Source: a virus
Direction: 5' to 3' (one strand)
Virus record (IMG/VR): IMGVR_UViG_3300043409_000364
Location: 1-25,358 of that record
Length of the DNA stretch: 25,358 bases
Shown here: piece after piece, positions 8,886-18,288 of the stretch
Layout: the number at the start of each line of letters is the position of its first letter
How positions within the stretch are numbered: the stretch's first letter is position 1
Program-made: the position numbers and the translations under genes
The notes under the pieces: model-generated
Told to the model about the DNA's origin: nothing
Databases searched by the model: none
What the model saw: only the letters and a program-made list of their open reading frames with translations

Positions 8886-9101
8886 ATGCTTACCAAGAAC
8901 CCAATCGACCTGCGCGCCAACGACGACAAGTCATACACGCTGTATTATTTCTCCGAGGAGATTGGCTACATTGAGCGGCTGATGCGCAGAAACAAAACTG
9001 TGAAGATGTCGATCTGGCGCGTCTGCACAGTTAACGGCGCCCTCGATTACTGCGGGTCATTGAAATCAGCAAAGAGCCGCCTGCTGGAGATGCACCATTG
9101 A
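8886..9101 (+). CDS. Hypothetical protein
   Basis: A 71-residue protein. The start at 8886 is set by GGAGG at 8876-8880; a longer frame from 8856 would overlap the 30-residue membrane peptide. The sequence is mixed alpha/beta, with Y-T-L-Y-Y-F (residues 18-23) and a C-terminal basic helix K-S-A-K-S-R-L-L-E. No family was recognised. Its stop overlaps the TTG start of the DnaA-like gene, so the two are probably translated together. Confidence 0.75.
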   Translation: MLTKNPIDLRANDDKSYTLYYFSEEIGYIERLMRRNKTVKMSIWRVCTVNGALDYCGSLKSAKSRLLEMHH

Positions 9102-9493
9102 GCAACGTGTATGAGGATTTGACAGAACACTACAAGGCTGTTGCTCGCAGGATTGCGGCTGTTGCGCCGGTAATAGAAGTTAAGCCTGTAAAGGTAGAGC
9201 CTGTAAAAGTTGAGCCTGTAGAAGTGCCGCTTCCGGTAATCAGGCTGGGTGTACCGCCGGTATCTGATGCAGCGAGGCAGTACATCAGTTCAATTCTGCT
9301 GGCGAACAAAATGGGGTGGAAGGAACTGGTCTACCCCAACAGAAGCACGGACATGGTCAGACTGCGCGCTCAGATATACGTGTTTCTAAATGATCGGGGA
9401 TGGTCGTTATCGCAAATCGGAAAACTGTTTAACCGCGATCATTCGACAGTCTTGTATTCAATACGCAACATAAGAAAGTGGAGCCCAAAATAA
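9098..9493 (+). CDS. Stand-alone DnaA domain IV-like DNA-binding protein
   Basis: A 131-residue protein. The C-terminal half (about 72-127) matches DnaA domain IV: an Arg-rich helix R-L-R-A-Q-I-Y (88-94), then W-S-L-S-Q-I-G-K-L-F (102-111) and R-D-H-S-T-V-L-Y (113-120), corresponding to the DnaA signature RDHTTVLHA that reads the DnaA box. The AAA+ domain is missing. Residues 28-43 form a repeated KPVKVEP linker joining a short helical N-terminus. The TTG start overlaps the previous stop, and GGAG lies eight bases upstream. It probably binds DnaA-box-like DNA, either to recruit or compete with host DnaA or to regulate transcription. Family is clear, biological role inferred. Confidence 0.82.
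   Translation: MSNVYEDLTEHYKAVARRIAAVAPVIEVKPVKVEPVKVEPVEVPLPVIRLGVPPVSDAARQYISSILLANKMGWKELVYPNRSTDMVRLRAQIYVFLNDRGWSLSQIGKLFNRDHSTVLYSIRNIRKWSPK
9182..9226 (+). repeat. 15-bp tandem repeat encoding VKVEP linker
   Basis: Three imperfect 15-bp units (AGCCTGTAAAGGTAG-type) encode the P-V-[KE]-V-E/P repeats of the linker before the DnaA-like domain. It is probably a flexible spacer that grew by slippage. Confidence 0.8.
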
Positions 9494-12528: not shown

Positions 12529-12758
12529 AAAAAATAGATGCTGGTGCAGCCTTTGATAAGGTAGCGGAAAAGGTTTTTGATGCAGTAAAAGGAGAAAACG
12601 CAAAAGCAGTTGAAGCATCACTGGGATTTCATCTGACCGCAGTTATTATCCACACGTCAGATTCTCATCTTGAGGCACTCGAACGCGTCAGCCGTGTGAG
12701 CGAAAAGCTGGTTGAAACGATTGATAGTTTTAACTGGTCGAAAAGGGGAAAGTTCTAA
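12525..12758 (+). CDS. Hypothetical small protein
   Basis: A 77-residue protein starting at the ATG that overlaps the RuvC-like stop (ATGA); an in-frame GTG at 12507 lies further inside that gene. It is mostly helical with a central hydrophobic strand L-T-A-V-I-I-H-T (38-45) and a charged tail. No family was recognised. An exact DnaA-box consensus lies inside its coding sequence at 12646-12654. Confidence 0.7.
   Translation: MKKIDAGAAFDKVAEKVFDAVKGENAKAVEASLGFHLTAVIIHTSDSHLEALERVSRVSEKLVETIDSFNWSKRGKF
12646..12654 (+). promoter_or_regulatory. Exact DnaA-box match TTATCCACA
   Basis: The nine bases match the DnaA-box consensus exactly. About 0.2 exact hits on both strands would be expected by chance in a window of this size. 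It is a single box inside a coding sequence, so function is uncertain; the phage-encoded DnaA domain IV protein makes it worth noting. Confidence 0.35.
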
Positions 12759-13646: not shown

Positions 13647-14441
13647 ATGAAATCAGATTACTTCGATGTGGAAGCACTATCGGCATCAGGGGCAAAGGAG
13701 TTGCTCCGGTCACCTGCGCACTATCGCTACTGGAAGGATCACCCGAAACAGTCAACGCCAGCTATGATCTTTGGTACGGCTGTTCACTCGCTGATCTTGG
13801 AGCCTAGCATCCCGCTGGATCAGGTATGCTCAATCAAAACGCTGTCATGGGCAACCAAAGAGGGCAAACTGGAGAAGGAGCGGCTGGAGGAAGCCGGTCT
13901 GCCTGTTATGTCGCAGCCCGATGCAGACAGGGCGCAGAGGATCAGGGATATTGTGCTGGGCCACGAGGAAGCAGCCAGCTTGTTGCATGGGGCGAAATGC
14001 GAACTGAACTACAAATGGAACGGGTACGAAACGAATGTCCCGTGCAAGGGCGGCATTGATGCACTGGGGCCGCGTGGCATTGTTGACCTGAAAACCACCA
14101 TCGACGCATCGCCAGACGGGTTTGCCCAGCGCATCAAGGCGTTCAAGTACCACATGCAAGCCGCCCACTACATCGATGGTGTCAGCATCACAGACAAAGT
14201 TATGCACAACTTCACGTTCATCGCGGTTGAGACTGCTCCACCATATGCGGTGGCCTGTTACCAGTTAGACCACAACGCGTTGATGGCTGGCCATGCCGCG
14301 ATGGAGCGCGTTGCAAAGGTGTATGCGAGATGCCTTGAAACAGGTAGCTGGCCCGCGTATGCCCTTCAGTCCCAGACGTTGCAGGTTCCGTACCTGACAA
14401 TGCCTGAGTACGACCCGGCTATTGACGCCGAGGACTTCTAA
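13647..14441 (+). CDS. RecE-like PD-(D/E)XK exonuclease
   Basis: A 264-residue protein of the exonuclease VIII/DUF3799 type. It starts with a typical L-S-A-S-x-x-K-E-L-L-x-S-P-A-H-Y (11-26), then G-T-A-V-H47-S-L-I-L-E-P, G-G-I-D138-A-L, V-D147-L-K149-T and Q171-A-A-H-Y175. H47, E119, D138, D147 and K149, with the QxxxY motif, form the RecB/RecE-type active site. It should degrade one strand of a duplex 5' to 3', making single-stranded tails for annealing with the DUF2815 binding protein encoded next. The length fits a nuclease domain alone. Translation may be controlled by the hairpin at 13628-13641. Confidence 0.87.
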   Translation: MKSDYFDVEALSASGAKELLRSPAHYRYWKDHPKQSTPAMIFGTAVHSLILEPSIPLDQVCSIKTLSWATKEGKLEKERLEEAGLPVMSQPDADRAQRIRDIVLGHEEAASLLHGAKCELNYKWNGYETNVPCKGGIDALGPRGIVDLKTTIDASPDGFAQRIKAFKYHMQAAHYIDGVSITDKVMHNFTFIAVETAPPYAVACYQLDHNALMAGHAAMERVAKVYARCLETGSWPAYALQSQTLQVPYLTMPEYDPAIDAEDF

Positions 14442-15152: not shown

Positions 15153-15470
15153 ATGGCTGCTGACGACAATCTGCATATCACAATCGCGCAGGGGCAAGAA
15201 GCCCTGTACGCCGCATTTGACGAGTACCTAGAGCGCGCACAGTTGCACGCTGGAATATCGCGAGATTATGCCTGTGCACACGATGTGCCGGGTATGGCGT
15301 ACAGCCTGCGGAAGCTGCGCATGTATGTGAAGGCCGCATCGGCTGAACTAGCGGCAATCGTAGACGAGCAGCGCAGGCACGCCGAGGATACAGGCGGGAG
15401 CCCGTCTGCGGTGGTTCCGGTTAACAACGGCGCCGAGACATCCGGTGACAAGGAATGGTGGGAGCAATGA
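15153..15470 (+). CDS. Hypothetical helical protein before helicase
   Basis: A 105-residue protein with GATGAGGA nine bases before the ATG. Residues 10-75 look like long amphipathic helices with Ala/Leu/Arg repeats (E-Y-L-E-R-A-Q-L-H-A, S-L-R-K-L-R-M-Y); the C-terminus is low-complexity and acidic. The ATGA overlap with the helicase gene suggests a partner of replication, for instance a loader or accessory factor, but no family was recognised. Confidence 0.7.
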   Translation: MAADDNLHITIAQGQEALYAAFDEYLERAQLHAGISRDYACAHDVPGMAYSLRKLRMYVKAASAELAAIVDEQRRHAEDTGGSPSAVVPVNNGAETSGDKEWWEQ

Positions 15471-16933
15471 GCGGCGACACACTTGATGACTGGATGGATG
15501 AGGATGACGATGAAATCATTGAGCAGATCAAGGTTTTGGAGGCACACAAGGGCAAGGATGCACAGGGCGCACGCGTCTGGTCTACGGAGGAGGACGGGTC
15601 AGCGCCGGTCGTCGTGCTGCCAGATGAATGGGAAGAAGGGCTGATCCGCGACGCCAAAGGACATGCTCTCTTTAACCATTATAACGTAAGCCACACTTTG
15701 CGATGCTGCCCGGAATGGGATGGATTTATTGCCTATAACGAGTTCACCGGGCGCAAGATGTTAATGAAGCCGATACCGGGTTCACGGACGCCAAAGTGTT
15801 CATTTCGCGTCCGTGAACTGGCAGACCACGACATCCTGACAGCCACAGCATGGTTCAATAGGAATAGGTTCCCAAGGGCGTACAAGAGCGTCGTTGCCGA
15901 TGCTATCGATGAGATTGTGCAGGAATACAGGTACAACCCGCTGCGAGATTATCTGGAAGGCGCTGCCGCAGGCTGGGACAATGTTCCGCGTGTGCAGAAA
16001 TGGCTGACGACATATTGCGGGGCAGACGCTGGCGACCCGATGGAACAGCAATATGTTGACGAGGTTGGCTTGAAGTGGATGGTCAGCGCAGTCGCACGGG
16101 CGATGCAGCCGGGCTGTAAGGCTGACGGTGTGCTGATATTGGAGGGCGCGCAGGGTGCATTCAAATCCACAGCCGCCAAGATACTCGCGGGACCGGATTT
16201 CTTTGGCGACAACTTACCGCAGATGCACACACGCGAGGCGTCAAGCTACGTGCGTGGCCGGTGGATCATAGAGCTGGCCGAACTGGCGAACGTCAGCAAG
16301 GCAGAGGTGGAGATCGTTAAGGCGTTTATCAGCCGCACCGAGGAGCGGTTCAGACCAGCATACGGGCGAAACGAGGTCTCGTATCCACGGCAATGCGTGT
16401 TCATGGGCAGCACCAACAGGACAGACTACCTGCGAGACGACACAGGCAACCGCAGGTTCTGGCCGGTGCAGGTTAACCGGGTTGACGTTAAGGCATTGGA
16501 GGCAGATCGCGATCAGCTATGGGGCGAGGCAGTCGCGCTGTACAGGGCAGGCGAGACGTGGTGGCTGTCTGCCGCCGTTGAGCGCATCGCAGCCCAAGAG
16601 CAGGGCGACAGGATGCTGGAAGACCCGTGGACCAGCAACGTGCTGAACTGTGTTGAGGGTAAAACTGAGGTGTGCGTGTCGCAGGTGCTGGGCGATATGA
16701 TGATCGAGGTCGGCCGGAAAGACCGGATGATGAGCAACAGGGTGCAGTCAATCCTGATGCAGAATGGATGGTTCCGCGATGGCAGAATGACCAGCGGGAC
16801 ATACAAAGCGCAGAACAGGTTCATCAGAAAACAGGACGCCAAGCAGCAAGCTGAACAGCTACAAGCAGCAGAGGTTAAGGCTGCGGCGGATGTGGCCAGC
16901 GGCCTCGGTGACATGGATAAGGATGTGTTTTAG
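15467..16933 (+). CDS. VapE/VirE-family P-loop ATPase (SF3-type helicase)
   Basis: A 488-residue protein of the virulence-associated E/VirE family, which resembles superfamily 3 helicases of phages and mobile elements. Walker A is G227-A-Q-G-A-F-K-S-T235; the Walker B strand is W-I-I-E-L-A-E-L (266-273); sensor 1 is S-T-N (315-317); G-N-R-R-F-W-P-V (327-334) carries the arginine finger. The first 25 residues are very acidic. It probably unwinds the phage origin as a hexamer. No primase or polymerase domain is seen in it or in the neighbours, so host enzymes should follow it. The ATG overlaps the previous stop; an AT-rich repeat gap lies directly downstream. Confidence 0.9.
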   Translation: MSGDTLDDWMDEDDDEIIEQIKVLEAHKGKDAQGARVWSTEEDGSAPVVVLPDEWEEGLIRDAKGHALFNHYNVSHTLRCCPEWDGFIAYNEFTGRKMLMKPIPGSRTPKCSFRVRELADHDILTATAWFNRNRFPRAYKSVVADAIDEIVQEYRYNPLRDYLEGAAAGWDNVPRVQKWLTTYCGADAGDPMEQQYVDEVGLKWMVSAVARAMQPGCKADGVLILEGAQGAFKSTAAKILAGPDFFGDNLPQMHTREASSYVRGRWIIELAELANVSKAEVEIVKAFISRTEERFRPAYGRNEVSYPRQCVFMGSTNRTDYLRDDTGNRRFWPVQVNRVDVKALEADRDQLWGEAVALYRAGETWWLSAAVERIAAQEQGDRMLEDPWTSNVLNCVEGKTEVCVSQVLGDMMIEVGRKDRMMSNRVQSILMQNGWFRDGRMTSGTYKAQNRFIRKQDAKQQAEQLQAAEVKAAADVASGLGDMDKDVF

Positions 16934-16943
16934 CATAACCTAG

Positions 16944-17175
16944 GCAAGTGAATAGAAATGGTGAATAGAGGGTGTTTCAGAAACATGGAGGGAGAAGTTG
17001 AAATGGAGTGAATAGGATACCTGTTTTATACTTATCTTTAAATCTTTTATAAGTTATTGTATATACAGGGTTATGAGACAGCATGTCTCAGGGGTAGAGA
17101 TATTCACCAATATGGGTATATGCACTTATGAATCGTAATAGTCTTTTGCTGAAAATCGGTTCACTATTCACTTGC
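16944..17175. other. AT-rich iteron-like region; candidate origin or control region
   Basis: This non-coding gap of about 270 bases separates the helicase gene from the packaging module. GTGAATAG occurs at 16948-16955, 16961-16968 and 17008-17015; its reverse complement is at 17164-17171, and a one-mismatch reverse copy is at 17101-17107. The outermost copies extend to a perfect inverted 12-bp repeat, GCAAGTGAATAG (16944-16955) and CTATTCACTTGC (17164-17175). Between them lies the most AT-rich DNA of the window (about 17020-17066) and a palindrome. Iterons plus an AT-rich stretch next to a helicase gene are typical of replication origins; an operator/promoter region is the main alternative. 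Confidence 0.55.
17074..17090. promoter_or_regulatory. Perfect 7-bp inverted repeat, probable operator or hairpin
   Basis: TGAGACA-GCA-TGTCTCA is a 17-base dyad with seven perfect pairs about a three-base centre. It lies just after the AT-rich stretch and about 120 bases before the next gene. Its symmetry suits a dimeric regulator such as the XRE-like protein of this window; a small cruciform is also possible. Confidence 0.5.
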
Positions 17176-17207
17176 TAAGGTTAAGGCAAAAAAGGGGAGC
17201 AAAAGGC

Positions 17208-17774
17208 ATGGCCGTTCGACCGAAAACCACAGCAGCAGACAGCATTACAAACCCGGTAAAATCGGATAGCGAAGCCGCATGGCGGGCGGCTGTACAGTAC
17301 AGCGATGAGGCAGCAATCAGGGTTGAAGGGCAATGGGGAATAGGCAGGCTTGAGCAGCTTGTGCAGCCTGAACTAGCCGCCATGTTCGCCTTGGCGCAAA
17401 GACAACTTGATGAGGCGATACGCGTCTGCGATCCGAAGCTGGCGGCACAGAAGTCTGCATCATTGGCTAAGGGCTGGATGGCGATGGATAAGGCGGCGCG
17501 AGCAGCAGGCCACAAGCCAGAGGATGTCGGTAACGTCTGGTTCCACGCGTCAGATGATGGCAAGCATAAGTATTGCTTCTGCGCACGGGCGAACGAGGGC
17601 GTCGGGTTGTCCAGACGATACCCGGATCACATTGTTGTATCGTTTGAGGAGGTCGCACGGTTGATGCAGGCGACTGATGCAGGTGTGGCCGTGGCTGCAA
17701 TTAAGCAGGTGTTTCCGGGTGCAACAGTGGCAGCAGGACGCATTCCACGGGGTGGAGACGAGGTGCCGTTTTGA
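17208..17774 (+). CDS. Hypothetical protein upstream of terminase
   Basis: A 188-residue protein. The ATG at 17208 has an AAGGGGAG site upstream; an in-frame TTG at 17172 would extend into the repeat gap. The N-terminal 100 residues are Ala-rich helices, followed by a more ordered region with H-K-Y-C-F-C-A-R (about 119-126), P-D-H-I-V-V-S-F-E-E-V (140-150) and a Gly/Pro C-terminus. It is not recognised. As the first gene after the candidate control region and before the terminase genes, it may act in DNA packaging or late gene control, but nothing in the sequence proves this. Confidence 0.72.
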   Translation: MAVRPKTTAADSITNPVKSDSEAAWRAAVQYSDEAAIRVEGQWGIGRLEQLVQPELAAMFALAQRQLDEAIRVCDPKLAAQKSASLAKGWMAMDKAARAAGHKPEDVGNVWFHASDDGKHKYCFCARANEGVGLSRRYPDHIVVSFEEVARLMQATDAGVAVAAIKQVFPGATVAAGRIPRGGDEVPF

Positions 17775-17823: not shown

Positions 17824-18288
17824 ATGCCTGAAGCCGAAACGGAACCGAAACAATTACATGAGCAACCGCTTATGGACAATTTAACAGTAGTCCGTGATGA
17901 CGCAGGCCGCATCAAGCGAGGGAACATAAACCCGTTCTCAGGTAAGACGCGCCGCGATGCGCTCATGATGCGCAGGTTGCAGGGCATGACGGACAAGGCG
18001 ATCACCAACCTTGAGCGACTAATGACCTGCGGAAACCCGGCAGCAGAGCTACAGGCCACTAAGGAAATCCTTGATAGAACAATGGGTAAGGTGCGTCAGC
18101 ATGTCGACGTATCAGTGACCGACACGGCACAGGCGCACCTTGCTGCACTGGTAGAACTGAACGACAGGGCGCGGGTTCGCAGGGAGCAACTGGCAGCAAG
18201 CGACAGCGCAAGAGATGTAACCGTTCTTCAATCGGAACCAACGATCATTGATGCAGTCGTCATAGGTAGTAACGATGAGGTTCCATAA
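17824..18288 (+). CDS. Probable small terminase subunit
   Basis: A 154-residue protein encoded just before the large terminase gene. A basic segment G-R-I-K-R-G-N-I-N-P-F-S-G (29-41) precedes helices with A-L-M-M-R-R-L-Q-G-M (46-55), A-I-T-N-L-E-R-L-M (59-67) and A-T-K-E-I-L-D-R-T-M-G-K-V-R-Q (78-92). This pattern resembles small-terminase-like phage proteins (compare DUF5681-type), in which L-x2-L and A-x3-I-L-x-R-x2-G-x-P segments recur. The subunit would recognise the packaging site and regulate the large subunit. The start follows GATGAGGA. Position is a strong argument; sequence evidence is moderate. Confidence 0.6.
   Translation: MPEAETEPKQLHEQPLMDNLTVVRDDAGRIKRGNINPFSGKTRRDALMMRRLQGMTDKAITNLERLMTCGNPAAELQATKEILDRTMGKVRQHVDVSVTDTAQAHLAALVELNDRARVRREQLAASDSARDVTVLQSEPTIIDAVVIGSNDEVP

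Follow-up and report, generated by a model that had tools for sequence, protein, structure and literature searches.

The window analysed here (25,358 nucleotides, positions 1 to 25,358 of IMG/VR virus record IMGVR_UViG_3300043409_000364) is a linear 25.4-kb fragment from a freshwater tailed phage that encodes a terminase of its own and an SU10-type portal. Its VapE-family helicase gene (15455..16933, + strand; 492 amino acids; Pfam PF05272, E 9.6e-79; DNA helicase in PHROG) is separated by an intergenic gap of 274 bp (16934..17207) from the next open reading frame (ORF), which codes for a 188-amino-acid protein without a Pfam or PHROG match (17208..17774, + strand). The gap starts directly after the VapE stop codon, which ends at 16933, and is closed by the ATG at 17208. 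Its GC content is 36.5%, against ~54% in the surroundings, and all genes around it share one direction. Sequence reading, conservation and shuffling point to this gap as a putative origin of DNA replication, with the VapE helicase as its proposed self-loading initiator.

The gap holds five iterons. Exact copies of the word GTGAATAG are found on the + strand at 16948..16955 (A1), 16961..16968 (A2) and 17008..17015 (A3), and on the − strand at 17164..17171 (A5). Iteron A4 (17101..17107, − strand) is a 7-mer match, GTGAATA (GGTGAATATC). The three forward iterons lie to the left and the two reversed ones to the right of an AT-rich core (17022..17066; 88% AT over the best 40 bp), the proposed unwinding element, inside which a conserved stretch, TAAGTTATTGTATA, occupies positions 17050-17063. 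GTGAATAG occurs 5 times in the whole window where 0.39 copies are expected, the fifth copy being a stray within a gene at position 2559. Dinucleotide shuffles of the gap gave P = 0.0002 for an 8-mer present four times, and none of 5000 shuffles held a 7-mer present five times. Among the window stretches scanned, the gap is the sole place with four copies of an 8-mer per 274 bp. The direct and inverted repeat copies that an earlier note on this DNA had described in the AT-rich gap are borne out by these word counts and shuffles. That note had also stressed a perfect 12-bp inverted repeat. It is real (GCAAGTGAATAG; arms at 16944..16955 on the + strand and 17164..17175 on the − strand) but not significant alone, as an inverted repeat of at least 12 bp arises in ~8% of gap shuffles; it is a minor feature, in which the outermost iteron pair is extended into its flanks.

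The order VapE gene, gap, 188-amino-acid gene is kept in the related viral contigs compared. The iteron word differs between phages and is uniform inside each gap, while the layout and a core motif near TAAGTTATTGATATATA persist. GTGAATAG is the iteron of the window, L002/L006, L014 and L035, RCGAATAG that of L001/L003, CTGGATAG that of L012/L027/L034/L033, GGAGATAG that of L036 and GTGAACAT that of L038. GGGAGAYAG is found in L223/L229, TGCAGAYAG in L227/L232 and GGTAGAYAG in L228/L230; GGGAGACAG and TGCAGATAG also stand among the iterons in the gaps of relatives. The 3′ half of the iteron, RAYAG, is almost invariant and the 5′ half (GTG in the window) is variable. The earlier note had made its origin depend on GTGAATAG copies in close relatives that share the gene order. 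The outcome favours the note, though not in the form expected: the repeats are kept there in the same layout, but the word is altered as a set. Such a change of all iterons together within a retained layout is the pattern expected for the sites of one trans-acting protein. Near-full-length relatives have their iterons clustered at the gap, with only isolated single copies elsewhere. The first iteron of L228 and L230 (GGTAGACAG/GGTAGATAG) contains the TAG stop codon of VapE.

The C-terminal domain of VapE (~residues 392-456; 16628..16822, + strand) is the proposed reader of the iterons. It is predicted by AlphaFold2 to fold as a winged helix: a model built on an alignment of 33 sequences has a predicted local distance difference test score (pLDDT) of 82, with helices and strands in the order of a winged helix-turn-helix. 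The best Foldseek matches of the domain are winged-helix proteins and the C-termini of other VapE proteins. A sequence search of the L012 domain against the PDB gave no credible match. A full-length VapE model, obtained from five sequences, had a pLDDT of 36 and was discarded for that of the C-terminal domain. The recognition helix (SNRVQSILMQNGW; 16733..16771, + strand) is nearly constant across the clade (consensus SNRVxSILxQNGW), whereas the wing (FRDGRMTSGTYKAQNRF; 16772..16822, + strand) varies with the iteron.

This pairing between wing and iteron is the most interesting part of the finding. L001 and L003 have NG in the wing for the KA of the window and L002, and RCG in the iterons for GTG. 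The wing of L033 resembles that of L012, and CTGGATA iterons were found in L033 as expected from it. Among loci with ~93%-identical VapE proteins, L223/L229, L227/L232 and L228/L230 each match in both wing type and iteron type, and these loci are grouped otherwise by the VapE core and by the 188-amino-acid gene. The DNA identity of the VapE core is 84.6% between L223 and L229 and 89.0% between L229 and L228, so that L223 and L229 are not mutually closest. The 188-amino-acid protein of L223 has its nearest relatives in L227/L232, and that of L229 in L234. Since the 188-amino-acid gene lies as near to the iterons as the wing codons or nearer, DNA proximity alone cannot explain the link between wing and iterons. 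At the level of single residues, iteron position 4 is A where VapE residue 444 (window numbering) is R, and G where that residue is K or Q; the pattern holds in 18 of 18 loci, a small and phylogenetically structured sample.

Iteron arrays were also surveyed more widely, in 101 nonredundant VapE loci on viral and on genome contigs, an array being defined as at least 5 copies of one 7-mer no more than 500 bp 3′ of the VapE gene. Arrays follow VapE in 36 of the 101 loci, compared with 10 of 852 control segments taken from these loci (p 2.5e-29). In 27 of the 36 arrays the sets flank the AT-richest stretch in opposite orientations (strand shuffles: mean 12.1, maximum 22). Examples among cultured phages are Marinobacter PS3 and Pseudomonas LPPA36. 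VapE-like helicases are widespread in phages, with protein-level matches in 895 of 50,697 phage records, and no paper describing where phages with a VapE-like helicase start replication was found in the literature searched. Some terminase relatives carry an AAA_25 (RepA-type) helicase in place of VapE; short repeats of their own precede the 188-amino-acid gene (CCGGACA in L016-L024, GGGGGACA in L025 and GCGTGTCA in L010).

We consider it quite probable that the gap is an iteron origin to which the phage's own VapE helicase binds through its C-terminal winged helix. In the mechanism that we infer, several VapE molecules would bind the GTGAATAG iterons through this domain, with RAYAG, the constant 3′ half, recognised by the conserved recognition helix and the 5′ half, GTG for the window phage, by the variable wing. 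As the two iteron sets face each other, helicase assemblies at both could open the AT core between them. Helicases loaded on both sides would then establish bidirectional replication, and host polymerase would complete synthesis. Recruitment of the host enzyme is plausible from gene content: the window being only a 25.4-kb fragment, the earlier claim that no polymerase gene is present was examined in six relatives of 36-38 kb, in which Pfam gave no PolA or PolB match.

Several observations weigh against this interpretation or its wing-iteron component. The Foldseek E-values of the C-terminal domain are modest. In about two thirds of the VapE loci no array is obvious in the 500 bp next to the gene, some of these loci carrying inserted genes or more distal iterons. 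L037 and L039 have degenerate repeats only, and L234 has a mixed array although it shares the wing of L228/L230. In the 18-locus clade, iteron distance follows the distance of the 188-amino-acid protein (0.65) more closely than that of the wing (0.46), and the link between wing and iterons after removal of the former has p = 0.058. Phylogeny confounds the global Mantel tests, in which the 188-amino-acid protein correlates best, and for this reason we rely on the close-group comparison. Because the wing codons lie close to the putative origin, recombination could transfer both together and so contribute to their association; such co-transfer is possibly the way in which wing and iterons co-diversify. 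A more tentative proposal, which we would not go so far as to call probable, is that VapE-type phage replicons carry an exchangeable specificity cassette in which the wing and the adjacent iterons diversify together, with no change in the recognition helix, the AT core or the body of the helicase.

An origin whose iterons are read by another protein, either the 188-amino-acid product or a DnaA domain IV-like protein without the ATPase part (9098-9493), is improbable. In every relative compared, the 188-amino-acid gene comes next after the gap; it is its constant right neighbour even when the helicase is of another family or lies ~2 kb away, and clade-wide its product correlates best with iteron distance. 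However, the cultured phages with iteron arrays 3′ of VapE have no detectable relative of it, and in the close group the iteron type is tracked by the wing and not by this gene. For the DnaA-like protein, a candidate binder in the earlier note, homologues were found in 6 of 6 near-full-length relatives searched, and TATTCAC is similar to part of a DnaA box. Its helix-turn-helix signature, where readable, is nevertheless invariant across iteron types, and the gap contains no DnaA box TTATNCACA at 0-1 mismatch, so that this protein is an unlikely reader. Two exact DnaA boxes (TTATCCACA and TTATGCACA) lie within coding sequence far from the gap, at 12646-12654 and 14200-14208.

Repeated sites close to terminase genes are typical of cos and pac sites, and the gap lies directly upstream of the packaging genes. 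That it is such a packaging signal, read by the small terminase, is nonetheless very unlikely. The small terminases of the window and of L001 match different families despite the conserved gap, and no small terminase of the window type was found in L012 or L014. In phiM5, a cultured terminase relative, 357-bp terminal repeats lie immediately before the large terminase gene and not at the place of the gap, and arrays come after the VapE gene in numerous phages and prophages that are only distantly related. The small terminase is of the PHROG 2538 type in the window (17824-18288) and Sf6-like (PF20901) in L001 (L001:4339-4935), where a methyltransferase-like ORF accompanies it.

The gap must hold signals between two modules of co-directional genes, and its dyad at 17074-17090 looks like an operator, but there is very little chance that it is purely a transcriptional control region with repressor operators before the 188-amino-acid/terminase operon, because its sigma-70 match is at chance level and operators explain neither two inverted sets around an AT core recurring 3′ of distant VapE-type helicases nor the link of the iterons to the helicase wing. 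A combined role in regulation and replication is possible. The dyad (TGAGACAgcaTGTCTCA) is symmetrical in the window and loses its symmetry in most relatives; of the iteron origin with a built-in operator centred on a 7-bp palindrome in the earlier note, the iteron origin, next to the VapE helicase gene, is the best-supported part, and the operator is not supported. The right half of the dyad is also the ATGTCTCA half of arm B′ of a second inverted element (GAGACAT/ATGTCTC type) flanking the AT core, which consists of arm B (16975..16986, + strand; TTTCAGAAACAT, GAGACAT-type in relatives) and arm B′ (17083..17092, − strand; ATGTCTCAGG), as exemplified in L036 by CAAACACAT/ATGTGTTTG. Arms of the same phage pair better than swapped arms (p = 0.008). 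Searches of the gap for Rfam families, tRNAs and terminators were negative, and the GC-skew inflection suggested earlier as a sign of an origin was not seen there.

Other features were observed around the gaps of relatives. In nine loci (L033, L037, L039, L063, L064, L224, L226, L231 and L232) VapE is separated from the following module by additional sequence that often contains ORFs; where iterons are covered, they are beyond this insert. ORFs in the L226 and L231 inserts are, by reading, candidate DNA methyltransferases. The phage contig L233 has dense CAGCCAG/CGTCAGC units ~1.3 kb after VapE. A sliding-clamp-like gene (PF02767) is directed away from the iterons in L007 (L007:317-1105, − strand), and L009 has a similar ORF.

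The closest known parallels are the Staphylococcus aureus pathogenicity islands (SaPIs) and other phage-inducible chromosomal islands (PICIs). As cited in PMC7581432, the C-terminal domain of SaPI Rep acts on iterons directly 3′ of its gene (Ubeda 2007). PICI origins have two iteron sets around an AT-rich region 3′ of rep, an arrangement termed unique to PICIs (PMC6092414). The window likewise has iterons directly 3′ of the initiator gene, in two sets flanking an AT-rich region, and shares with these elements an iteron sequence that varies between elements and, by prediction, a helicase with a C-terminal DNA-binding domain. It differs in being not a satellite but a tailed phage that has terminase and portal genes of its own, and in its helicase, whose Pfam match is solely PF05272 (VapE-like) whereas SaPI Rep families are DUF927 or Primase_C/D5-like; moreover, the layout called unique to PICIs recurs here 3′ of phage and prophage VapE genes. 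By analogy, the module is built like a SaPI/PICI rep-ori without being a member of that group. In the staphylococcal cassette chromosome mec (SCCmec), the C-terminal domain of Cch2 binds repeats directly downstream of its operon (PMC7581432), but Cch2 is a D5/Primase_C-type helicase with three 5-nt direct repeats, for which no two-sided inverted layout is described (PMC7581432).

Phage P4 has inverted type-1 iterons in its crr, 3′ of the alpha gene. The type-1 repeat GGTGAACAG and GGTGAATAG of the window differ by one base, and the relative L038 has GGTGAACAT; the window itself carries GGTGAATAG and AGTGAATAG, at least one base off the P4 repeat. From the words compared, this similarity is a lead that may be a coincidence. 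P4 differs in that alpha is annotated as a primase and in that crr consists of a 120-bp unit in duplicate, a second origin lying elsewhere. For the window helicase compared with alpha, Pfam gives the VapE-like family only, and the structure of the C-terminal part of alpha (PDB 1KA8) is not among the best 50 PDB fold matches of the VapE domain. Lambdoid origins, with iterons for the O protein, also have phage iterons adjoining an AT-rich region. There, the initiator is a protein distinct from the helicase and its gene contains the iterons, which sets these origins apart from the window.

If the gap is an origin read by VapE, the origins of many VapE phages could become predictable from sequence, and the rep-ori layout of SaPIs and PICIs, called unique to those elements (PMC6092414), would extend to tailed phages. 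The natural variants would be ready matched pairs of wing and iterons for working out the recognition code. If the specificity cassette is indeed exchangeable, each phage would have a private origin within a readable wing-iteron code, and the driver of this diversification would perhaps be rivalry for origins among co-infecting phages or satellites.
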